In this document: positions 20,269-55,868 of the stretch, one piece after another | How the letters are laid out: each line of letters opens with the position of its first letter | How positions within the stretch are numbered: the first letter of the stretch is position 1 | Assembly: GCF_002160865.1 (NCBI RefSeq) | Contig: NZ_NFLJ01000003.1 | Coordinates: 1 to 64,000, forward strand | Source: Massiliimicrobium timonense | Lineage (GTDB): Bacteria; Bacillota_I; Bacilli_A; Erysipelotrichales; Coprobacillaceae | Length of the DNA: 64,000 nucleotides | Direction of reading: 5' to 3' | Translations under genes and position numbers: made by a program | The notes under the pieces: generated by a model | Told to the model about the DNA's origin: nothing | The model's database searches: none | What the model saw: the letters and a program-made list of their open reading frames with translations, nothing else

Positions 20269-20282
20269 TTAGCTTATGCTAA
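20269..20282 (+). promoter_or_regulatory. TTAG-N6-CTAA palindrome before the ABC pair (candidate iron box)
   Basis: TTAGCTTATGCTAA, with 5-bp arms TTAGC/GCTAA, lies 23 bp before the start codon of the first ABC gene. The arms are identical to the site on the second feo promoter (24921-24934). No strong promoter was recognised around it. Confidence 0.55.
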
Positions 20283-20304: not shown

Positions 20305-22107
20305 ATGGAAAATAAGAAAAAAGGATCCATTATGACTTTATTGGATTATGCAGGAAATTACAAAGTATTAACTTTTATTGGTCTTGTTTTATCAGCAATT
20401 TCTATGCTTTGTAGTATTGTGCCATATGTTTGTATTTGGTTAGTTGCAAGAGATTTGATTGGAGCAATGCCAGATTATTTATATGTTCAAAATCTAGAAA
20501 TGTATGGATGGGTTGCTTTTGGGTTTGCAATCATTGGAATTATATTTTATTTTATTGGATTATTATGTACGCATTTATCTGCATTTAGAACTGCTGAAAA
20601 CATAAGAAAGATAGGTATGAATCATATTATGAAGGCACCTTTAGGATACTTTGATAATAACGCTTCAGGACTTATTAGAGGAAGGCTTGATAGTGGAGCA
20701 AATGATACAGAAACACTCTTAGCACATAATTTAGCTGATATAGTAGGAACGATTGTTCTTTTTATAGGGATGGTTATTTTGATGTTTGTTTTTGATTGGC
20801 GTATGGGATTGGCTTGTCTGCTATCTGCAGTGATTTCCATTTTGATGATGTTTTCAATGATGGGTGGTAAAAATGCAAAGATTATGGCTGAATATCAGGC
20901 TGCCCAAGATAAAATGACAAAAGCTGGAACAGAATATGTAAGAGGAATACCAGTTGTGAAAATATTTCAACAGACAGTTTATTCATTTAAATCATTTCAA
21001 CAAGCTATTGAGGAATATAGTGATAAAGCTGAATATTATCAAGGAAAAGTTTGTCGTGTTCCTCAATCCATTAATTTAACATTCACTGAAGGAGCATTTA
21101 TTTTTTTAATTCCAGTGGTTATTCTTTTGATACCTGAAGCATTAAATGGTGGGCAATTTCATGAACTTGTAACAAATTTTATATTTTATGCGGTTTTTTC
21201 AGCTATTATTTCAACAGCCCTTGCAAAAATTATGTTCGCTTCATCAGGAATCATGTTGGCAAATACAGCACTTAGCCGTATCGACATGGTTATGAAAGCA
21301 CCAATACTTGAAAAGTGCATCAATCCTCAAATGCCAAAGGACAATAGTGTTGCTTTTAAGGATGTAAGTTTTACTTATCAGGGATCAAATATTCCTGCTT
21401 TATCACATGTATCTTTCCAAGTTGAGTCAGGTCAGACAATTGCATTGGTTGGACCATCGGGAGGAGGTAAAACCACAGCAGCAAGTTTAATTCCAAGATT
21501 TTGGGATGTGGATGAAGGTATAGTAGAAGTAGGTCATGTGAATGTCAAAAATATTGATCAGCATGTTTTAATGAATCAAGTAGCTTTTGTTTTTCAAAAT
21601 ACTCAACTTTTTAAAACATCTATTTTAAATAATGTGAAAATTGCTAATCCTCAGGCATCAGATGAGGATGTGATAAAAGCATTACAAGCTGCAAGATGTC
21701 AAGATATTATTGAAAAACTTCCTGATGGTGTACATACACAAATTGGAAAAGAAGGAACATATTTATCTGGCGGTGAGCAACAACGAATTGCCCTAGCAAG
21801 AGCTATATTGAAAAATGCACCCATTGTTGTATTGGATGAAGCGACTGCTTTTGCTGATCCTGAAAATGAAGTTTTGATCCAAAAAGCTCTTAGCGTTTTG
21901 TGTCAGGATAAGACAGTTATTATGATTGCTCATCGTTTATCAACAGTTGTTAATGCGGATAAAATCATTGCCTTAAAAGATGGAAAAATTATTGAGGAAG
22001 GACGTCATAAGGAGCTCTTAAATAAAGAAGGTCTATATCATAAAATGTGGAATAATTATAATCAATCAGTGAAATGGAAAATTACAAGTGGGAAGGAGGG
22101 TATATAA
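20305..22107 (+). CDS. ABC transporter, fused membrane-ATPase subunit 1 (IrtA/YbtP-like pair)
   Basis: A 600-aa protein with six membrane helices (about residues 20-310) and an ATPase domain: Walker A GPSGGGKTT, signature LSGGEQQR, Walker B VVLDEATAFADPENE, H-loop IAHRLST. The ATAFADPENE form of Walker B is common in the paired exporter-fold transporters that import siderophores (YbtPQ, IrtAB) or related compounds. Its stop is directly followed by the next ATG. An iron-box-like palindrome precedes it. Drug export remains an alternative, given the adjacent TetR gene. Confidence 0.85.
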   Translation: MENKKKGSIMTLLDYAGNYKVLTFIGLVLSAISMLCSIVPYVCIWLVARDLIGAMPDYLYVQNLEMYGWVAFGFAIIGIIFYFIGLLCTHLSAFRTAENIRKIGMNHIMKAPLGYFDNNASGLIRGRLDSGANDTETLLAHNLADIVGTIVLFIGMVILMFVFDWRMGLACLLSAVISILMMFSMMGGKNAKIMAEYQAAQDKMTKAGTEYVRGIPVVKIFQQTVYSFKSFQQAIEEYSDKAEYYQGKVCRVPQSINLTFTEGAFIFLIPVVILLIPEALNGGQFHELVTNFIFYAVFSAIISTALAKIMFASSGIMLANTALSRIDMVMKAPILEKCINPQMPKDNSVAFKDVSFTYQGSNIPALSHVSFQVESGQTIALVGPSGGGKTTAASLIPRFWDVDEGIVEVGHVNVKNIDQHVLMNQVAFVFQNTQLFKTSILNNVKIANPQASDEDVIKALQAARCQDIIEKLPDGVHTQIGKEGTYLSGGEQQRIALARAILKNAPIVVLDEATAFADPENEVLIQKALSVLCQDKTVIMIAHRLSTVVNADKIIALKDGKIIEEGRHKELLNKEGLYHKMWNNYNQSVKWKITSGKEGI

Positions 22108-23853
22108 ATGTTTGGAGAAAATTTTAAACGTAAATATGCTTTAACTCATCAAGGTGTTCAAAATGTTAAAAAGGGAACGTTTTGGACGGTTATAGTTAAT
22201 ATTGTTGTTATGGGTGGTATGGGTATATTATATTTGCTTATGAATCACCTTATTTCCCTTTTGATAAAAAATCAAGCTGAAATGAATGTTCTTGTTATTA
22301 TTGGTTTATTGATTGTATTTGTATGCCTATCATTTATAACTCATCTTCAACAGTATACTTCAACATATGGATTGGTTTATGGAGAAGTCAAAGCAACGAG
22401 AATTTCATTGGCAGAAAAATTGCGTCAATTACCGCTAGGATATTTTCATAAAAAAGATATTGCAGATTTAACGGAAACACTAATGGGAGATGTAAACCGA
22501 ATGGAACATGTCTGGTCACATGTTCTTGGTTATTTGTATGGTTCTTATATTTCAACAGGGATTATTGCTGTGTTCTTATTTATCTATGATTGGCGATTGG
22601 CGATTTCCTGTCTTTGGGGTGTACCAGTGGCATTTGGCTTACTATTTGGTTCTCGTCAATGGACTTCAAAAGCATCTCAAAAACTTAAACAGGCAGCAAT
22701 ACAAGTCTCTGATGGTATCCAAGAATCATTGGAAAATGTGAGAGAGATACGAGCAACTAATCAAGAAGAAACTTATCTTCAAGGACTTTATCAAAAAATA
22801 GATACACATGAAAAAGTGATGATTAAAGGTGAACTGGTAGCTGGATTGTTTGTCAATGGAGCAAGTGTAATTATGCGTTTAGGTGTAGCAACAACAATTT
22901 TGGTTGGAGTACATTTGATTGTGCAAGGACAAGTTGATTTTATGATTTTGTTTATGTTTTTATTAGTGATTACAAGAATTTATGCACCTTTTGATCAAAG
23001 TCTAGCATTAATTGCAGAAATGTTTATATCTCAAGTATCAGCAAATCGTATAACAGAAATATATGATACACCTGTTGCATCAGGTGAAAAAACATTTAAG
23101 CCAAAAGGACATGACATTGAGTTTCATCATGTTTCCTTTGCTTATGATTTACAAGATGTTTTAAAAGATGTTAGCTTTATCGCAAAGGAAGGTGAAGTGA
23201 CAGCTTTGGTTGGACCATCAGGGTCAGGTAAAAGTACTTGTGCTAAATTAGCGGCACGTCTATTTGATGTTCAAAAGGGAAAAATAACAGTTGGTGGTGT
23301 TGATATCAATGAAGTTGATCCAGAAGTTTTATTGAGTGATTATTCAATGGTATTTCAAGATGTTGTTTTATTTGATGACAGCATTAAAGAAAATATTCGT
23401 TTGGGGAAAAGAAATGCAACGGATGAAGAAGTATATAAAGCTGCAAAAGCAGCGAATTGTGATGAATTTGTTCAAAAACTTCCTGATGGCTATGATACTC
23501 TTATTGGTGAAAATGGTACTAAGCTATCTGGAGGAGAAAGACAAAGAATTTCAATCGCAAGAGCACTTTTAAAAGATGCACCAATCATCTTATTAGATGA
23601 AGCAACAGCTAGTCTTGATGTTGAAAATGAAACAAAAATACAAGAAGCTTTGTCAAGACTGTTAGTAAACAAAACTGTGTTGGTCATTGCACATCGAATG
23701 CGAACTGTTCAATCAGCTGATAAGATTATTGTTTTAGAAGATGGAAAAGTGAAAGAAGAAGGAAGTCCAGAACAATTATATAAACAAGATGGACTCTATC
23801 GACATATGCTCGATTTACAAAATGAGAGTGCTAAGTGGCAAATTGATGCATAA
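22108..23853 (+). CDS. ABC transporter, fused membrane-ATPase subunit 2
   Basis: Partner of the preceding protein (581 aa), same six-helix plus ATPase layout: Walker A GPSGSGKST, signature LSGGERQR, Walker B IILLDEATASLDVENE. Unlike the exporter at 6.6-10.2 kb, both subunits of this pair keep all catalytic residues. The two genes abut (TAAATG), implying equimolar synthesis of a heterodimer. Confidence 0.87.
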   Translation: MFGENFKRKYALTHQGVQNVKKGTFWTVIVNIVVMGGMGILYLLMNHLISLLIKNQAEMNVLVIIGLLIVFVCLSFITHLQQYTSTYGLVYGEVKATRISLAEKLRQLPLGYFHKKDIADLTETLMGDVNRMEHVWSHVLGYLYGSYISTGIIAVFLFIYDWRLAISCLWGVPVAFGLLFGSRQWTSKASQKLKQAAIQVSDGIQESLENVREIRATNQEETYLQGLYQKIDTHEKVMIKGELVAGLFVNGASVIMRLGVATTILVGVHLIVQGQVDFMILFMFLLVITRIYAPFDQSLALIAEMFISQVSANRITEIYDTPVASGEKTFKPKGHDIEFHHVSFAYDLQDVLKDVSFIAKEGEVTALVGPSGSGKSTCAKLAARLFDVQKGKITVGGVDINEVDPEVLLSDYSMVFQDVVLFDDSIKENIRLGKRNATDEEVYKAAKAANCDEFVQKLPDGYDTLIGENGTKLSGGERQRISIARALLKDAPIILLDEATASLDVENETKIQEALSRLLVNKTVLVIAHRMRTVQSADKIIVLEDGKVKEEGSPEQLYKQDGLYRHMLDLQNESAKWQIDA

Positions 23854-24807: not shown

Positions 24808-24847
24808 CATGAATATATGAAAATAGCTACTTTTTTGCTTTTATATA

Positions 24848-24900
24848 TTGACAATTATAGGAAATGAGAGTATTCTAATGATGTGGTTAGTAAAGACTAA
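24848..24900 (+). promoter_or_regulatory. feo promoter P1 with candidate iron box
   Basis: TTGACA (24848-24853), exact 17-bp spacer, TATTCT (24871-24876). The palindrome TTAGTAAAGACTAA (24887-24900; arms TTAGT/ACTAA) lies just downstream, at the start point. Confidence 0.65.
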
Positions 24901-24909
24901 CTTATATTT

Positions 24910-24937
24910 TTGACAAAGAGTTAGCGTGTGCTAATAT
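24910..24937 (+). promoter_or_regulatory. feo promoter P2 with candidate iron box
   Basis: TTGACA (24910-24915), 16-bp spacer, TAATAT (24932-24937). The palindrome TTAGCGTGTGCTAA (24921-24934; arms TTAGC/GCTAA) fills the spacer and part of the -10. TTAG-N6-CTAA is also the core of the DtxR/IdeR consensus. Confidence 0.65.
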
Positions 24938-42143: not shown

Positions 42144-42297
42144 AACATCACCTCATTTCTTATCCTATTATAACATTTTCAAATGAAAAAACCTCTTTAA
42201 TTATAGAAATGATTATTATAAGATGATATATAGATATAAAAAGATTTGACTTGAAATATAAACTTATTCATGAGTATGATGTATAGGGGTGATTGTG

Positions 42298-43191
42298 ATG
42301 GGATTCATTGATTTGCATATACATTCTTGTTGTTCTGATGGAGTGCTAACACCTTTTGAAATTGTTGATCAAGCGATGGAAAATCATGTTGATATGATAT
42401 CTATTACTGATCATGATTGTATTGATGCTTATACATTATCTTTTTTAGAATATGCCAGAAAAAATGATATTTCAGTTGTTTATGGAGTGGAAATATCGAC
42501 ACATTATCAAGGAACAGGATTTCATGTGTTAGGGTATCAATTTGATATTCATAACTCAAAGCTTAATGAAAAACTTTATACATTAAAAAATGCAAGACAT
42601 ATTTATTTAAAGGAAGTTTCAAAAAAGTTAGAGGAGTTAGGGTATATTGTTTATGTTGATGAATTAAGTCAATTCAAAATAGTGACGAAGGCACATATTG
42701 CAAGTCATATTGTACAAAATAAAGAGAATGAAAAATTATTGCTTCATGATTTTGGATATATTCCTCAACGTGGTGAATTTATTGAAACTTTAATGAATGA
42801 GGGATGTCCAGCTTATGTGAAAAAGGAATCTATAACGCCTATGGAAGCAAGTCAGTTGATTAAAGAAGCGGGTGGAATAGTTGTATTAGCACATCCTGTC
42901 TGTTATGAACATGAAGATCATATCAATGTAGAATCTATAACCCATCTTGTTAAAGAGATGAATGCTGATGGAATAGAGGCTATTTATATGTATATAGATC
43001 AAAAAAATAATAAGATTAATGATATCGAAAAATGGAAGAATTTTGCTTTGAAGAATCATTTGCTTTATACAATGGGATCAGATTTTCATATGGATGATGG
43101 CATTCATCCTCAAATCGGATTAATAAATGAACAAGTATATATTCAAAATAATGATATACAATGGTTAAAAAAGAAAATGATAGGGGTATAA
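42298..43191 (+). CDS. PHP-domain phosphoesterase, YciV/TrpH type
   Basis: A 297-aa PHP protein: DLHIHSCCSDGVLTP, ITDHDCIDAY, GVEISTHYQG, LAHPVCYEHE and GSDFHMDDGIHPQIG give the full metal-site set of the RNase AM/TrpH branch (5'-3' exonuclease or 3',5'-nucleoside bisphosphate phosphatase). ATG at 42298 after AGGGGTG. Separate branch from the PHP protein at 15.1 kb. Confidence 0.88.
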   Translation: MGFIDLHIHSCCSDGVLTPFEIVDQAMENHVDMISITDHDCIDAYTLSFLEYARKNDISVVYGVEISTHYQGTGFHVLGYQFDIHNSKLNEKLYTLKNARHIYLKEVSKKLEELGYIVYVDELSQFKIVTKAHIASHIVQNKENEKLLLHDFGYIPQRGEFIETLMNEGCPAYVKKESITPMEASQLIKEAGGIVVLAHPVCYEHEDHINVESITHLVKEMNADGIEAIYMYIDQKNNKINDIEKWKNFALKNHLLYTMGSDFHMDDGIHPQIGLINEQVYIQNNDIQWLKKKMIGV

Positions 43192-43206
43192 TTTTATTGA
43201 AATCTA

Positions 43207-43234
43207 TTGACAAAAGTGTAAAAAAGAGTATACT
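43207..43234 (+). promoter_or_regulatory. Consensus promoter of the small RNA unit
   Basis: TTGACA (43207-43212), 16-bp spacer, TATACT (43229-43234); one of the strongest-looking promoters of the window, yet no gene follows before the terminator. Confidence 0.75.
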
Positions 43235-43242
43235 GAATATAG

Positions 43243-43260
43243 AGTTAGTTATAGCTAACT
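43243..43260 (+). promoter_or_regulatory. Palindrome over the start point, TTAG-N6-CTAA class
   Basis: AGTTAGTTATAGCTAACT, 6-bp arms, containing TTAG-TTATAG-CTAA (43245-43258), the same class as the feo and ABC sites. It could also fold as the 5' stem of the RNA. Confidence 0.6.
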
Positions 43261-43420
43261 GATATATCTAAGCGTGTAAAAGATATATAAAGAATTGAAA
43301 GGAATAAGAAGAATCAAAATAGTTTCCCCTCATACTCCTATTCATCAAAAGCCAGATTGAAATCTAGACATACTTAACTATGATGATTTTCTATTCTTTC
43401 AAAAGCACTTTATGTGTATA

Positions 43421-43446
43421 AAGTAATCTTCGGATTACTTTTTTTC
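43421..43446 (+). terminator. Terminator of the small RNA unit
   Basis: AAGTAATC-TTCG-GATTACTT with seven or more T's; a textbook intrinsic terminator located before the deoR promoter. Confidence 0.9.
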
Positions 43447-43477
43447 TTTTGTGATAAAGTTGCGTTTGAAATTTAGA

Positions 43478-43486
43478 TGTGATAAT
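43478..43486 (+). promoter_or_regulatory. Extended -10 promoter of deoR
   Basis: TG-T-GATAAT with a weak TTGCGT -35 at 43460-43465. It shows that deoR does not depend on the upstream small RNA promoter. Confidence 0.5.
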
Positions 43487-43507
43487 CTAGGTATAAAGGT
43501 GATAGAA

Positions 43508-44263
43508 ATGAAAAAAATGGAAATCAGACAGACAAAAATATTAGAATTATTAACAGAAAGAAAAAAAGTTGATGTGAATGAATTTTCACAGTTATTGAAA
43601 GTTTCGCAAGTGACAATTCGTAAAGATTTGGATTTATTAGAAAAAAAAGGGCTTATCATAAGGGCTCATGGATTTGCGACATTGAATGGTCAAGATGATA
43701 TGAATAACAGATTGGCTTATCATTATGATATTAAACAAAAACTGGCAAAACTTGCCTGTGAACTGATTGAAGATGGAGAAACAATTATGATTGAATCGGG
43801 CTCTTGTTGTGCTTTATTGGCACAAGAGATAGCTGCCAGTAAAAAAGATGTAACGATTATATCCAATTCTTCATTTATTGCTGATTATATTCGTCAATAT
43901 CCACAGGTGCGTATCATTTTGCTTGGTGGAGAATATCAAAAAGAAGCACAAGTTTGTGTTGGACCGATGACACGTAAATGTGTTGAAGCCTTTTTTGTGG
44001 ATAAGTTCTTTATTGGAGCCGATGGTTTTTCAAAAACATCTGGTTTTACAGGGAATGATTATATGCGTAGTGAAACAGTAAGAGATATGGCAAAACAGGC
44101 ACAACATGTGATTGTAATTACAGAATCATCAAAGTTTCAACAGGTGGGATTGGTTAATCTTTTACCAACGGATCAAGTATCATATGTTGTGACAGATCAA
44201 CAAATTCCATTAGATAGTGAAGACTATCTACAAAGTCAAAATATCACTGTAAAAAAGGTATAA
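43508..44263 (+). CDS. DeoR family transcriptional regulator
   Basis: A 251-aa DeoR-type repressor: helix-turn-helix VDVNEFSQLLKVSQVTIRKDLDLLEKKGLI and the sugar-phosphate sensor domain (IMIESGSCCALLAQEI, LLGGEYQKEAQVCVGP, FIGADGFS). Start at 43508 with AAAGGTG. It converges on the activase gene and probably controls the glycyl radical enzyme operon through sites at 45.2-45.3 kb. Confidence 0.93.
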   Translation: MKKMEIRQTKILELLTERKKVDVNEFSQLLKVSQVTIRKDLDLLEKKGLIIRAHGFATLNGQDDMNNRLAYHYDIKQKLAKLACELIEDGETIMIESGSCCALLAQEIAASKKDVTIISNSSFIADYIRQYPQVRIILLGGEYQKEAQVCVGPMTRKCVEAFFVDKFFIGADGFSKTSGFTGNDYMRSETVRDMAKQAQHVIVITESSKFQQVGLVNLLPTDQVSYVVTDQQIPLDSEDYLQSQNITVKKV

Positions 44264-44279
44264 AAAAGGAGCTATGCTC

Positions 44280-45176
44280 CTAAATAAAACAATCTATGTT
44301 ATGATTAATAAAAATTTGTTGATAATCTTTTAAGTCCTCAGGATGGAGGGCTTTTTTATTTTGATAAAGATATTCTTGATTCAACATTTCATATTTCTTT
44401 TCTCCAAATTGATGAAAAGGTAATAACTGTACACGTTTGATTCCTGTTTTTTGAAATAATTTCACGAAACCTTCAGCATCTTCTAATGTACAATTAAAAT
44501 CTGGTATGACAGGAATACGTGGTAATACATCAATGCCTTGTTGAATAGCCCATGTTAAATTTTGAATAATGAGTTCATTAGGAACACCTGTTTTGAAAAG
44601 GTGCTGGTGACTATCATAATGTTTGACATCAAAGAGTAATAAATCAAATTGTGGAGCTAATTGATGAAAAATGTCTTCTTGGATATAACCAGTTGTTTCA
44701 ATCGCAACATGTATCTTTTCTGCTTTTAAAGCTTGAAGTAAAGCTTCTACAAACTGTGGCTGTCCCATACCTTCACCACCAGAAATCGTAACGCCACCAT
44801 TGGATTCTTCATAAAAAGGAAGATCCTGTTTACAGATACGAACAATTTCTTGCACTTCCTGATATTCACCTTCACATGTTAATGAATGTGAAGGGCATTG
44901 TTGTGTACATTGTAAACATCCTATACATTTTTGAAAATCAATATGGATATGTTCATTGTTATAGGAAATAGCGTGTTGTGGGCAGACACTGATACAATGC
45001 AAACAATGTAGGCATGTCTGATGATTATATAGGATTTGAATATCTGGATTTTGTGATTCAGGGTTAGAACACCACTGACATCTTAAAGGACATCCTTTTA
45101 AAAAGACAGTTGTACGAATACCCGGTCCATCATGAATACTAAATTTTTGAATGTTAAAAATGATACCTTTTGTCAT
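44280..45176 (-). CDS. Glycyl radical enzyme activase, radical SAM
   Basis: A 298-aa activase: radical SAM motif GCPLRCQWCSNPE near the N terminus, then two 4Fe-4S clusters (CLHCLHCISVCP and CIGCLQCTQQCP), VTISGGEGMGQ, and KHYDSHQH. The two extra clusters place it with the activases of GD/PflD-type enzymes, not PflA. Start at 45176 with AGGAGAG. Divergent from the glycyl radical enzyme it presumably activates. Confidence 0.92.
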   Translation of the reverse strand: MTKGIIFNIQKFSIHDGPGIRTTVFLKGCPLRCQWCSNPESQNPDIQILYNHQTCLHCLHCISVCPQHAISYNNEHIHIDFQKCIGCLQCTQQCPSHSLTCEGEYQEVQEIVRICKQDLPFYEESNGGVTISGGEGMGQPQFVEALLQALKAEKIHVAIETTGYIQEDIFHQLAPQFDLLLFDVKHYDSHQHLFKTGVPNELIIQNLTWAIQQGIDVLPRIPVIPDFNCTLEDAEGFVKLFQKTGIKRVQLLPFHQFGEKKYEMLNQEYLYQNKKALHPEDLKDYQQIFINHNIDCFI

Positions 45177-45192
45177 AATTTCTCTCCTTTGA

Positions 45193-45210
45193 ATATATGT
45201 TAACATATAT
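45193..45210. promoter_or_regulatory. 18-bp perfect palindrome between activase and glycyl radical enzyme
   Basis: ATATATGTTAACATATAT, just upstream of the activase start. Candidate operator for the divergent genes; regulator unknown. Confidence 0.45.
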
Positions 45211-45232
45211 ATTGATGATAGTAAATAAAAAG

Positions 45233-45336
45233 TTTCATATGAAAGACATTTCTATTTTGTTTAAATAAATATTGACTTTAAATAAATGTATGATAATATA
45301 TAATTGAAAATGAAATATAAAAACTTTCAAATGAAA
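45233..45336 (+). promoter_or_regulatory. Glycyl radical enzyme promoter flanked by two TTTCAnATGAAA palindromes
   Basis: TTGACT (45272-45277), 16-bp spacer, TAATAT (45294-45299). TTTCATATGAAA (45233-45244) lies upstream and TTTCAAATGAAA (45325-45336) downstream, centres 92 bp apart, suiting a looping repressor, most simply the nearby DeoR protein. Confidence 0.5.
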
Positions 45337-45353
45337 TAAAAAGGAGAAGAAAG

Positions 45354-47765
45354 ATGAAGAATGTAGAACATTTTGGTGATTTAACACCACGTATGAGTCA
45401 TTTTAGAGAAGCAGTGCTTGATAAGAAACCTTATATTGATGCCCAACGTGCATTGCTTGTCACAGAAGCTTATGAAAAGTATAAAAATCAGACACCGGTT
45501 ATGAAACGTGCCTATATGTTAAAGAATATATTGGAAAAGATGTCTATTTATATTGAAGATGAAACTTTGATTGTGGGTAATCAGGCATCTTCTAATAAAG
45601 ATGCGCCTATTTTTCCTGAATATACAATGAAATTTGTTATTGAGGAATTGGACACTTTTGAAAAAAGAGACGGTGATGTTTTCTATATTACAGAAGAAAC
45701 AAAAGAAGCATTAAAAAGGATTGCACCATTTTGGGAAAATAATAATTTAAGAGCAAAAGGAGAAGCTTTACTTCCTGAAGAAGTCAGTGTTTTTATGGAA
45801 ACGGGATTTTTTGGGATGGAAGGAAAATTAAACTCTGGAGATGCACATTTAGCTGTTGATTATCAAAAAGTTCTGGAAATAGGATTAAAAGGTTATGAAG
45901 AAAGAGTTTTAGACATTCTAAGAGATTTGGACTTATGTGTTCCTGAAAATCTTAATAAGTATCAATTCTATAAAGCTGTATTGATTGTAATTGAAGCTGT
46001 GAGAACTTTTGCCAATCGTTTTAGTCTTTTAGCGAAAGAAAAAGCTCAAAAAGAAACAGGAAAAAGAAAAGAAGAATTATTAGAAATCAGTCGTATTTGT
46101 GCAAAAGTTCCATATCAACCTGCTCAAACATTTCATGAAGCGATTCAATCTGTATGGTTTATTCAATTAATTTTACAGATTGAATCTAATGGACATTCTT
46201 TATCTTATGGACGTTTTGACCAATATATGTATCCTTATTTAAAACATGATTTAGATAATCACATGATTAATGAAGATGAAGCTGTTGAATTACTGACAAA
46301 TTTATGGATCAAAACATTAACGATTAATAAAGTCCGTAGTCAAGCTCATACATTTTCAAGTGCTGGAAGTCCAATGTATCAAAATGTGACTATTGGAGGA
46401 CAGACCCCAGATCAAAAAGATGCTGTGAATAAACTTTCATTTTTAGTTTTAAAATCAGTAGCTCAAACAAGATTACCACAACCTAATCTGACTGTCAGAT
46501 ATCATGCGCATATCAATCAGGATTTCTTTGATGAAGCGATTGAAGTTATGAAACTAGGAACAGGGATGCCAGCATTTAATAATGATGAAGTCATTATTCC
46601 ATCATTTATTGAAAAAGGTGTCAAAGAAGAAGATGCTTATAATTATTCTGCGATTGGATGCGTAGAAACAGCAGTGCCAGGAAAATGGGGTTATCGCTGT
46701 ACAGGAATGAGTTATATGAATTTCCCAAGAATTTTATTGATTGCGATGAATAATGGTGTAGATATGACTTCTGGTAAACGTTTTGTGAAGGAATGTGGAT
46801 ATTTTACTGAAATGGAAACATATGAAGATTTGATGAAAGCATGGGATCAAGTTGTCAGAGAATTAACACGTATGAGTGTTATTGTTGAAAATGCTATTGA
46901 TTTGGCTTCTGAAAGAGATGTTCCAGATGTCTTATGTTCTACCTTAACAGAAGATTGTATTGGTAGAGGAAAGACAATCAAAGAAGGTGGAGCTGTTTAT
47001 GATTTTATTTCTGGATTACAGGTAGGCATTGCCAATATGGCAGATAGTTTAGCGGCTATTAAAAAACTTGTTTATGAAGAAAAGAAAATCACAAGACAGG
47101 AATTATGGGATGCAATTGTGCATGATTTTGCAGGTGAACAAGGACAAAAAATTCAACATATGTTGATCAATGATGCTCCTAAATATGGTAATGATAATGA
47201 TGATGTTGATCAACTTGTTGTAGATGCTTATGCTTCTTATATTGATGAAATGAAGAAATATCCTAATACTAGATATGGAAGAGGACCAATTGGTGGTATT
47301 CGTTATGCTGGAACATCTTCTATTTCAGCAAATGTTGGACAAGGTTTTGGGACAATGGCAACACCAGATGGAAGACATGCCAAAACACCATTAGCTGAAG
47401 GATGTTCACCTGCTCATAGTTGTGATAAGAGTGGTCCAACAGCTGTCTTTAAATCAGTATCAAAACTACCAACACATGAAATTACAGGTGGTGTTCTATT
47501 GAATCAGAAAGTGACACCACAAATGTTATCAACTGAAGAAAATAAACAAAAACTAGAAATGATGATGAAAACATTCTTTAATCGTTTAGAAGGTTATCAT
47601 GTTCAATATAATGTTGTGTCTAGAGATACATTGATTGATGCTCAAAAACATCCTGAAAAACATAAAGACCTCATTGTTCGTGTGGCAGGTTATTCAGCAT
47701 TCTTTAATGTTTTATCAAAAGCAACACAAGATGATATTATTGAAAGAACAGAACAAACATTGTAG
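45354..47765 (+). CDS. Glycyl radical enzyme, PflD/YbiW-like
   Basis: An 803-aa glycyl radical enzyme. Active-site Cys in YSAIGCVETA, Glu two residues on; C-terminal glycyl loop RVAGYSAFF. The single Cys with GCVE separates it from true pyruvate formate-lyase (which has two Cys) and puts it in the glycerol dehydratase/PflD group. A fructose-6-phosphate aldolase-like gene follows by 12 bp, as with E. coli ybiW-fsaA. From memory, YbiW-type enzymes open 1,5-anhydroglucitol-6-phosphate to a deoxysugar that the aldolase splits; assignment here is a hypothesis. Confidence 0.88.
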   Translation: MKNVEHFGDLTPRMSHFREAVLDKKPYIDAQRALLVTEAYEKYKNQTPVMKRAYMLKNILEKMSIYIEDETLIVGNQASSNKDAPIFPEYTMKFVIEELDTFEKRDGDVFYITEETKEALKRIAPFWENNNLRAKGEALLPEEVSVFMETGFFGMEGKLNSGDAHLAVDYQKVLEIGLKGYEERVLDILRDLDLCVPENLNKYQFYKAVLIVIEAVRTFANRFSLLAKEKAQKETGKRKEELLEISRICAKVPYQPAQTFHEAIQSVWFIQLILQIESNGHSLSYGRFDQYMYPYLKHDLDNHMINEDEAVELLTNLWIKTLTINKVRSQAHTFSSAGSPMYQNVTIGGQTPDQKDAVNKLSFLVLKSVAQTRLPQPNLTVRYHAHINQDFFDEAIEVMKLGTGMPAFNNDEVIIPSFIEKGVKEEDAYNYSAIGCVETAVPGKWGYRCTGMSYMNFPRILLIAMNNGVDMTSGKRFVKECGYFTEMETYEDLMKAWDQVVRELTRMSVIVENAIDLASERDVPDVLCSTLTEDCIGRGKTIKEGGAVYDFISGLQVGIANMADSLAAIKKLVYEEKKITRQELWDAIVHDFAGEQGQKIQHMLINDAPKYGNDNDDVDQLVVDAYASYIDEMKKYPNTRYGRGPIGGIRYAGTSSISANVGQGFGTMATPDGRHAKTPLAEGCSPAHSCDKSGPTAVFKSVSKLPTHEITGGVLLNQKVTPQMLSTEENKQKLEMMMKTFFNRLEGYHVQYNVVSRDTLIDAQKHPEKHKDLIVRVAGYSAFFNVLSKATQDDIIERTEQTL

Positions 47766-53481: not shown

Positions 53482-53508
53482 GACGTGTTTAAAGAGAAGT
53501 GCTATGAT
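53480..53508 (+). promoter_or_regulatory. Promoter of the thi operon
   Basis: TTGACG (53480-53485), exact 17-bp spacer, TATGAT (53503-53508), just before the riboswitch. Confidence 0.75.
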
Positions 53509-53515
53509 AATAAAA

Positions 53516-53592
53516 AAGGGAGCTTATAAATAGGCTGAGAGGAAGTTGTGAACTTCGACCATACCTGATTTGGATAATGCCAACGTAGGGAT
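53516..53592 (+). ncRNA. TPP riboswitch (THI element)
   Basis: Contains the conserved GGCTGAGAGG, ACCTGATTTGGATAATGCC and AACGTAGGGA blocks of the thiamine pyrophosphate aptamer, with a short P3 stem (GAAGTTGTGAACTTC). Controls thiM-thiE-thiD. Confidence 0.95.
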
Positions 53593-53640
53593 ATAAAATG
53601 AGTATTAAGAGTATATCCCTTGATATATTCTTTTTTTGTA
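53589..53640 (+). promoter_or_regulatory. Expression platform of the TPP riboswitch
   Basis: GGGATATA/TATATCCC can pair (53589-53619) using the 3' end of the aptamer, with a T-rich stretch at about 53630-53638. Likely transcriptional termination or sequestration when TPP is bound. Confidence 0.55.
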
Positions 53641-53654
53641 AGGAGGATGAAAAG

Positions 53655-54470
53655 ATGATAGAACAAGTCAAAAATGCTAAACCATTAATTCATTGTATCA
53701 CTAATAAAGTGACAATGAATGATTGTGCCAATGCTTTACTCGCAATTGGCGGGAGTCCTATTATGGCTGATGATGAGGCAGAAGTAGAAGACATTACATC
53801 TATTTGTCAAGGATTGTTGATTAATATTGGAACATTGAATCAGGCAACCATTCCATCTATGATGAAAGCTGGAAAAAAAGCCAATGCCTTACAACACCCT
53901 GTTTTATTAGATCCCGTTGGAATAGGCGCAAGTCAATTACGTTATCAGACAACTCAACAATTATTAAAAGAAGTTCATTTTGATGTCATTAGAGGAAATA
54001 TTTCAGAAATGAAAGTTTTAATGAATATCCAGTCACAATCAAGAGGTGTTGATGCGAATGCATCAGATAGTATAACGGATGAAAACTTAGATGAAAATAT
54101 AATATGGTTACAACAACTCAGTTCAAAGACAGGAGCGATTATAGCGGTTAGTGGAGCTATTGATGTGATTGTGGATAGTCAAAATGCTTATATTGTTAGA
54201 AATGGATGTCAAGAAATGTCTATGATTACAGGAACAGGTTGTATGTTAAGTGCAATTATGTCTGCATTTATGGTTGTTCATCGTCAAAGACTGTTAGAAG
54301 CATGTACTTATGTCAGTGCATTGATGGGATATTGTGGAGAGTTGGCAAAAAATAAAATGCTTGTTGAGAAATTAGGTGTGGGAAGTTTAAGAGTTTATTT
54401 GATGGATTATTTATCACTTATGAATGATGGTATATTGAAAGAAGGAATGAAGATTGAAAAAAGATGTTAA
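53655..54470 (+). CDS. thiM: Hydroxyethylthiazole kinase
   Basis: ThiM (271 aa) phosphorylates the thiazole alcohol for thiamine salvage. Motifs: HCITNKVTMNDCANALLAIGGSPIMADD and VSGAIDVI, then GCQEMSMITGTGCMLSAIMSAF. ATG at 53655 after AAGGAGGATG. Preceded by a TPP riboswitch; overlaps thiE by 17 bp. Confidence 0.96.
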   Translation: MIEQVKNAKPLIHCITNKVTMNDCANALLAIGGSPIMADDEAEVEDITSICQGLLINIGTLNQATIPSMMKAGKKANALQHPVLLDPVGIGASQLRYQTTQQLLKEVHFDVIRGNISEMKVLMNIQSQSRGVDANASDSITDENLDENIIWLQQLSSKTGAIIAVSGAIDVIVDSQNAYIVRNGCQEMSMITGTGCMLSAIMSAFMVVHRQRLLEACTYVSALMGYCGELAKNKMLVEKLGVGSLRVYLMDYLSLMNDGILKEGMKIEKRC

Positions 54471-55092
54471 GAAAGCCATGCCATTATATCTGGTTACAGA
54501 TCGTCGCTGGTTAAAGGAATCACTGATTCAAACAGTTGAAAAGGCAATTCAAGGTGGTGTGACTTGTGTTCAGTTAAGAGAAAAGCATTTGGATCAAAAA
54601 TATTTTGTTGAATCAGCTAGACAACTTTTATCTCTTTGTCACCAACATCATATTCCTTTGATTATTAATGATGATGTTGATGTGATGATAACAGTTCAAG
54701 CGGATGGTGTGCATGTTGGGCAAAATGATATGGATGCAAAAAAGGTAAGAGAGATGATTGGACCGGATAAAATATTGGGTGTATCAGTAAGAACTGTGGA
54801 ACAGGCTTTAAAAGCACAACAAGATGGAGCCGATTATTTAGGAGTGGGTTCTATTTTTGTGACACACACAAAAGATGATGCCAAAAAAGTGGAAATACAG
54901 ACGTTAAAAGATATTTGTCAAGCTGTTGATATTCCAGTGATTGCTATTGGAGGTATTGGACAGAATAATCTTTTACAATTAAAGGGGACAGGCATTGATG
55001 GAGTAGCTGTAGTTAGTGCTATTATGGCTCAAGATGATGTGTTCAAGGCTGCCCAGAATTTAAAAGGAAAAGTTAAGGAGGATATTTTATGA
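54454..55092 (+). CDS. thiE: Thiamine-phosphate synthase
   Basis: ThiE (about 212 aa) joins HMP-PP and thiazole phosphate. YLVTDRR, CVQLREKHLDQK, INDDVDV, HVGQNDMD, GVGSIFVTHTKDDA and IGGIGQNN are all present. A TTG start (54454) overlaps thiM; an ATG at 54478 is the alternative. Overlaps thiD by 4 bp (ATGA). Confidence 0.95.
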   Translation: MKKDVKKAMPLYLVTDRRWLKESLIQTVEKAIQGGVTCVQLREKHLDQKYFVESARQLLSLCHQHHIPLIINDDVDVMITVQADGVHVGQNDMDAKKVREMIGPDKILGVSVRTVEQALKAQQDGADYLGVGSIFVTHTKDDAKKVEIQTLKDICQAVDIPVIAIGGIGQNNLLQLKGTGIDGVAVVSAIMAQDDVFKAAQNLKGKVKEDIL

Positions 55093-55868
55093 AAACAGTT
55101 TTAACAATTGCAGGAACGGACCCAACAGGAGGGGCTGGGGCACAGGCCGATTTAAAAACATTCATGGCTCATAAAGTCTATGGAATGAGTATTATTACAT
55201 CATTGGTTGCTCAAAATACATTAGGTGTTAAAGATATTATGGATGTGACTCCTTATTTTTTAGAAGAACAATTTCAATGTGTTTTTGAAGATATTTATCC
55301 AGATGCAGTCAAGATCGGAATGGTTTCACAACCAGAATTAATTCATAAAATTGTTGAACAATTGAAAAAATATCATGCTAAAAATATTGTTGTAGACCCT
55401 GTGATGGTTTCTACAAGTGGTTCACGTTTATTAGCTGATAGTGCTTTAGAAGCTTTAAAAAGTGAGTTGATTCCATTATCTTGTATCATCACACCGAATA
55501 TTCCTGAAACAGAAGTTTTAGTGAATCATACGATTCAAAGTAAAGAGGATATGATTCAAGCGGCTAAAGAAATACAACAATGGTATCAAGGAGCTATTTT
55601 GATTAAAGGAGGACATTTTGAAAAACGTGCTGATGATTTACTTGTCATAAATAATGAGGTTTATTGGCTAGAATGTGAGCATATTGACAATCCAAATACA
55701 CATGGAACAGGTTGTACTTTATCTAGTGCCATAGCTTCCAATCTGGCTTTGGGTTATGATTTAAAAACAAGTGTGGAAAAAGCCAAGAAGTATATTACAG
55801 GAGCATTAAAAGCTAATCTAAATTTAGGACATGGCAGTGGACCATTGAATCATTGCTGGAATTTATAA
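55089..55868 (+). CDS. thiD: Hydroxymethylpyrimidine (phosphate) kinase
   Basis: ThiD (259 aa): TIAGTDPTGGAGAQADLKTF, KIGMVSQPE, VDPVMVSTSG and HGTGCTLSSAIAS signatures. With thiM and thiE this completes a salvage set (HMP plus thiazole) with no thiC or thiG, so the cell seems to take up precursors rather than make them. Confidence 0.96.
   Translation: MKTVLTIAGTDPTGGAGAQADLKTFMAHKVYGMSIITSLVAQNTLGVKDIMDVTPYFLEEQFQCVFEDIYPDAVKIGMVSQPELIHKIVEQLKKYHAKNIVVDPVMVSTSGSRLLADSALEALKSELIPLSCIITPNIPETEVLVNHTIQSKEDMIQAAKEIQQWYQGAILIKGGHFEKRADDLLVINNEVYWLECEHIDNPNTHGTGCTLSSAIASNLALGYDLKTSVEKAKKYITGALKANLNLGHGSGPLNHCWNL

Follow-up and report, generated by a model that had tools for sequence, protein, structure and literature searches.

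What is transcribed from positions 43207–43446, directly ahead of a deoR-family gene, is the question raised by this locus. The window is the whole stretch analysed, 64 kb of a 2.78-Mb genome (G000) belonging to genus g1. An earlier note had read the region as a stand-alone transcription unit for a small RNA, with an 18-bp TTAG-N6-CTAA palindrome of the class found at feo over its start point, an unpaired C-rich stretch complementary to Shine-Dalgarno sequences in its body and a deoR with its own promoter behind it. These readings are borne out below. The descent of the RNA core from a PF12669 coding sequence (CDS) is absent from that note.

A small RNA unit upstream of deoR

The promoter, TTGACA-16-TATACT (43207–43234, + strand), matches 11 of 12 consensus positions and is the best-scoring of 29 promoter-like sites in a scan of 42200–45400. 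Its -35 and -10 boxes have counterparts in G001–G003 (TTGACA..TATACT) and in G020–G022 (TTGACA or TTGGCA..TATTCT). With the start inferred from the -10 box and the end set by the terminator, the predicted transcript is about 206 nt long (43241–43446, +); in sister species it would measure about 250 nt. It has homologues, and its fold is more stable than those of shuffled sequences (z = -2.97). A 5' hairpin with the loop AAGCGUGUAAA (43262–43288, +) is kept within g1. The intrinsic terminator, AAAGTAATC-TTCG-GATTACTTT followed by a T run (43420–43446, +), has a UUCG loop. Among the ORFs of at least 20 aa in the transcript, none has a credible ribosome site and none is conserved. As in RNAs of the iron-sparing kind, the unit has, on the evidence of sequence only, its own promoter and terminator and no conserved ORF. 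No registered family matches the RNA in an Rfam scan of the window. Only a TPP riboswitch reaches the threshold there (RF00059, 61 bits, 53506–53608, +), upstream of thiM, thiE and thiD-like thiamine genes (53598–55868).

Related genomes were searched, as the earlier note had proposed, with a covariance model trained on G001–G003 and G020. The copy in the window, which was left out of training, is retrieved at E = 5.6e-9. Further true copies are present in G021 and G022 (g11), G033 and G032 (g19) and G028 (g16), which brings the RNA to 10 genomes in four genera. Among 316 genomes of the order, the covariance search confines it to this one family. Matches with E above 0.01 were not counted, and those inspected sit in other contexts. 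The RNA was not found in G004 and G023, whose contigs do not span the locus. In the set of papers searched, neither this RNA nor any small RNA with such an origin is described.

The RNAs of G000 and three other g1 species have in common the promoter, the operator, the 5' hairpin, CCCTCATACTCCTATTCATC, AGCCAGATT..ATCTAGACATACTT and the terminator, and the stretches between these blocks drift. Chance is ruled out because promoter, operator, core and terminator are kept in sister species. The small RNA is almost certainly real. Nine of the ten genomes have it directly upstream of the same deoR, and usually the feo operon precedes it. The exception is G032, where neither an operator nor deoR is found near the RNA. 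That copy (L074) is divergent and its operator unrecognisable, yet the helix that frames the C-rich seed is perfect over 12 bp. The RNA adjoins feo in G001–G003 and G021. In G000 the RNA–deoR pair is 15 kb from feo, and the RNA is therefore a separate unit.

The gene for the deoR-family regulator (43508–44263, +) is the constant downstream neighbour. Position upstream of it in nine genomes, together with a terminator at the RNA's end, would suit a cis-acting deoR leader, either an attenuator or a riboswitch that terminates ahead of the gene. This is very unlikely, since past the terminator there is a separate, conserved promoter-like block for deoR, no alternative antiterminator was seen, and no Rfam family matches. 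The conserved loop is C-rich and unpaired, and the iron operator is in keeping with the feo regulon rather than with deoR. The block itself, GTTGC(G/A)TTTGAAA, is kept across genera (window 43458–43495; L009, L070, L073, L075). It probably serves either as the promoter of deoR or as a site bound by DeoR.

Operator and putative repressor

The 18-bp palindrome AGTTAGTTATAGCTAACT (43243–43260, strandless) contains TTAG-N6-CTAA, a DtxR/IdeR-type spacing, and overlies the expected start point of the RNA. An operator of the same class precedes the RNA in G001–G003, G020–G022, G028 and G033. The window contains seven TTAG-N6-CTAA sites against 1.25 expected, and 0 of 100 shuffles have as many. Genome-wide, the count of GTTAG-N6-CTAAC is not above that of the reversed control pattern, and the weight of the site comes from position and conservation. 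The feo promoter region (24847–24934, +) carries two operators 34 bp apart (24887 and 24921) behind TTGACA-TATTCT. At feo the -35 box is 38 nt from the operator; the RNA has 37 nt here, and its promoter–operator layout copies that of feoA. The RNA promoters of G001–G003 have tandem operators 34 bp apart, as at feo, and that of G000 has only the first. The promoter thus appears to lie under an operator of the iron-uptake regulon, as in iron-sparing RNAs, the site being common with feo. Iron-type control of the RNA is highly probable on this pattern of sites.

Further operator sites lie upstream of ahpCF, the enolase gene eno, an Fe-siderophore-type ABC operon and nrdI, with functions assigned by eye from sequence. 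A site of the same class at 20269–20282 is just upstream of an ABC transporter pair (20305–23853) that is similar to siderophore-type ABC importers with an exporter fold and is adjoined by a TetR gene. The operator GTTAGTTAAAGCTAAC is kept upstream of ahpC-ahpF-like genes in four species (L038 2626, L045 2528, L048 2497, L049 2435), which suggests a regulon that spans both the iron and the peroxide response. Three species have an operator between pckA-like and enolase genes (L039 2429, L043 2693, L044 2601). Enolase, a glycolytic enzyme, would be a surprising addition to the regulon.

The 14-bp IdeR/DtxR core has been proposed as TTAGG-N4-CCTAA (PMC8464063). Like IdeR/DtxR operators, the RNA site has TTAG and CTAA half-sites at the same 14-bp spacing (PMC8464063); their full 19-bp consensus, TTAGGTTAGSCTAACCTAA, is absent at the RNA site, and the DtxR-type assignment is one of sequence. 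A single DtxR-family protein is encoded in every genome searched, so that a TTAG-N6-CTAA promoter site and a protein of the family occur together, as in a DtxR/IdeR regulon. The recognition helix in the proteins read is FSKPSVSR (S-x-P-S motif), which is comparable to the DNA contacts Ser37, Pro39 and Thr40 of IdeR (PMC8464063). A FUR-family protein is also present, one in each g1 genome searched, and the DtxR-family protein is therefore only the putative repressor.

The FUR-family protein, the operator upstream of ahpCF and the short length of the DtxR-family protein (about 127 aa) would also be consistent with a small RNA that is under PerR- or MntR-type control in a regulon for peroxide or manganese, has other targets and does not spare iron. 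The sharing of the site with feo and Fe-siderophore-type transport, and its agreement with the 14-bp core spacing (PMC8464063), make such a regulon improbable.

The C-rich seed and its coding origin

Of all portions of the RNA, the C-rich stretch CCUCAUACUCCUAUUCAUC is conserved best, and it is predicted to be unpaired. The seed, CCCCUCAUACUCCUAUUCAUC (43326–43346, +), is complementary to Shine-Dalgarno sequences, forms the most conserved block and is predicted to be mostly unpaired. Its mean P(unpaired) is 0.81–0.90 in nine homologues and 0.64 in G000, and that of the whole RNA is about 0.4. Fold and covariation place a helix around it, with the 5' arm AUAGUU (43319–43324, +) and the 3' arm AACUAU (43376–43381, +). 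The sequence of this framing helix differs by lineage and the pairing stays. In an alignment that leans towards the structure, the arms having been extracted by hand and joined to the constant seed, 93.8% of cells are paired, double changes occur in four of eight pairs, and the covariation score is reached by 0 of 500 shuffles and by no slid control.

The covariance model also matches two protein genes, in G006 (E = 5e-7) and G027 (E = 0.006). Both are intact genes for FeoB-associated Cys-rich proteins (PF12669). The proteins read TIIVSLILLFIIYKIIKFQLKSRHRCHGGC (G006) and TIIVAVILLIIVIMIIKHQIQTRHTCSSGC (G027), and read-through of the G001 RNA gives IVALILLFIVILDYISQIKSRHTC. At the DNA level, the G001 RNA scores 68 over 67 nt against the G006 gene (shuffle mean 15.7, sd 2.5). 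Six RNAs score 38–68 against the intact G006 CDS, with shuffle means of 15–17; in no case does any of 2000 shuffles reach the RNA's score. In G027 the intact gene has the same locus position as the RNA, with feoB on one side and deoR on the other, and the terminator at its end, AAAGTAATCTTCGGATTACTTT, is also the same. Genus g20 has a second PF12669 gene, which fills the slot behind the HMA gene.

In the window, alignment and covariance matches place the remnant of the CDS, with its frame broken, at 43319–43381 (+). With few exceptions, the RNA-bearing genomes have the frame broken by stops and by indels that are not multiples of three; none has kept the Cys cluster. The RNA has DNA of common descent with PF12669 genes and no open frame with a Cys cluster; it differs from the ancestral CDS also in having its own promoter and operator. 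Because frame and Cys cluster were lost while the seed nucleotides hardly vary, the coding sequence became a small RNA. Descent of the RNA core from a PF12669 CDS, as judged from these alignments, is open to little doubt.

So clear a CDS origin would also be expected of a functionless pseudogene of a second PF12669 gene, a reading that is scarcely credible. From genus to genus the flanks drift but the core stays nearly identical, the helix covaries, promoter and operator are retained, and the RNA–deoR pair of G000 is intact though distant from feo. The locus could still be a small-protein gene or a dual-function RNA; its product would then be either a peptide read in the PHTPIHRH frame or a short hydrophobic relative of the FeoB-associated protein. 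The G001 read-through is open, G002 has a 16-codon frame behind GAGG, and ATG or TTG precedes PHTPIHRH in several g1 copies. Start codon, frame and stop vary, however, in nearly every genome, with indels of 1–2 nt; the Cys cluster is lost, no start is present in G020, G022 and G033, and conservation is of nucleotides, not residues. A peptide product is thus distinctly unlikely, and a non-coding RNA is the preferred reading.

The intact G006 gene (L137 795–962) already holds the 15-nt seed ATACTCCTATTCATC. Within that CDS, it consists of C-rich codons that are untypical for an AT genome. Because an intact gene carries the seed, a base-pairing role may predate the loss of the protein, inside the mRNA. 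It is tentatively suggested that an iron-response small RNA was born from the CDS of an iron-transport accessory gene, and that former transmembrane codons (LILLFIV) became its Shine-Dalgarno-binding seed. For the most part, the birth of new bacterial small RNAs has to be deduced from indirect traces. In this case, a single family shows a series of an intact gene (G006, G027), an RNA beside feo (G001–G003, G021) and an RNA apart from it (G000), bridged by gene order and, in part, by the terminator.

Candidate targets and comparison with known systems

The earlier note had named the neighbouring Fe-S and glycyl-radical genes as fitting targets, which is not upheld. For the deoR, activase, glycyl-radical and transaldolase neighbours, 96–229 of 300 shuffled seeds pair at least as well. 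Its proposal to search translation starts with the C-rich region produced one leading candidate and no global excess. When 2.0 Mb of G001 was scanned for seed matches at 2,092 start regions, hydC came first, and it is second of 1,275 by duplex energy. Its start site in G001 is AAAGATGAAAGGAGTATGTGT-ATG, and it opens an [FeFe]-hydrogenase operon that also contains hydB- and hydA-like genes. The hydC match recurs in g1 and g11, the two best sampled of the genera with the RNA: its pairing energy there ranges from -18.9 to -27.6 kcal/mol in genomes that carry the RNA, and from -18.9 to -23.9 kcal/mol in G000 and G003 (g1) and G020–G022 (g11). In g20, a sister genus without the RNA, it is -10.0 to -17.3 kcal/mol in five of six genomes and -18.5 in the sixth. 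Pairing is weak in g16 and g19 (G028, G032 and G033; -13 to -18 kcal/mol), and targets may therefore differ there. For hydC of G000, 67 of 1000 shuffled seeds pair as well, and hydC was not found in G002. In the G001 scan, 34 seed-complementary start regions score 18 or more, against a mean of 43 for flank-shuffled seeds. Without a global excess, the target claim is one gene and its recurrence, and hydC is a lead rather than a result; on sequence complementarity, the balance tips slightly towards a true target. A GGGtGRT (Fe-S-type) gene was rejected as a second target. It has GATGAAAGGAGTA in G001–G003, and the match is not specific because the RNA-less G006 and G027 carry the comparable sites AATGAAAGGAGTAAC and GTGAAAGGAGTAAA.

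Sequence comparison shows a conserved RNA, a common operator, an unpaired seed with a covarying frame and a CDS origin; repressor identity, iron response, target and mechanism are what we infer. The best explanation, likely as a whole, is an iron-repressed, trans-acting RNA of feo-gene origin that damps iron-costly proteins. The feo operon would have ended in a second gene for a FeoB-associated Cys-rich protein, the ancestor of the RNA. The coding frame of this gene would have decayed and its terminator been retained, with a feo-like promoter and operator now driving the RNA. When iron is replete, a DtxR/IdeR-type repressor on the TTAG-N6-CTAA site at the start point would block the promoter, as at feo, and the RNA would be made under iron shortage. 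The long helix would present the unpaired seed, which would pair with Shine-Dalgarno regions and block translation of iron-costly proteins, with hydC as the best candidate. On this evidence, one gut bacterium and related genomes have a small RNA, previously undescribed, that probably represses iron-costly enzymes under iron shortage, hydrogenase being the best candidate. If true, this would extend iron-sparing small RNAs to a gut Firmicutes lineage where none was found described, put a DtxR-type operator in place of a Fur-type one, and tie the hydrogen metabolism of gut bacteria to their iron supply.

FsrA of Bacillus subtilis is controlled by Fur. It is an iron-sparing RNA whose C-rich motif binds Shine-Dalgarno sequences and which depends on FbpA-C (PMC9410917). 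The RNA described here has a similar C-rich, Shine-Dalgarno-complementary motif and matches no Rfam family. IsrR of Staphylococcus aureus is a small RNA under an iron operator, with unpaired C-rich regions that pair with the Shine-Dalgarno sequences of iron-protein mRNAs, and it is found in one clade (PMC9410917). The iron operator, the unpaired C-rich region complementary to Shine-Dalgarno sequences and the single-clade conservation are alike, as read here from sequence alone. No sequence or synteny relation to IsrR was seen. In anatomy, the RNA would thus resemble both FsrA and IsrR, and by the tests run it appears to be a homologue of neither. IsrR has Fur boxes and three short C-rich regions, whereas the RNA here has a DtxR-type box and one large seed loop, and origin in a coding sequence of the feo operon is a feature of the RNA here.
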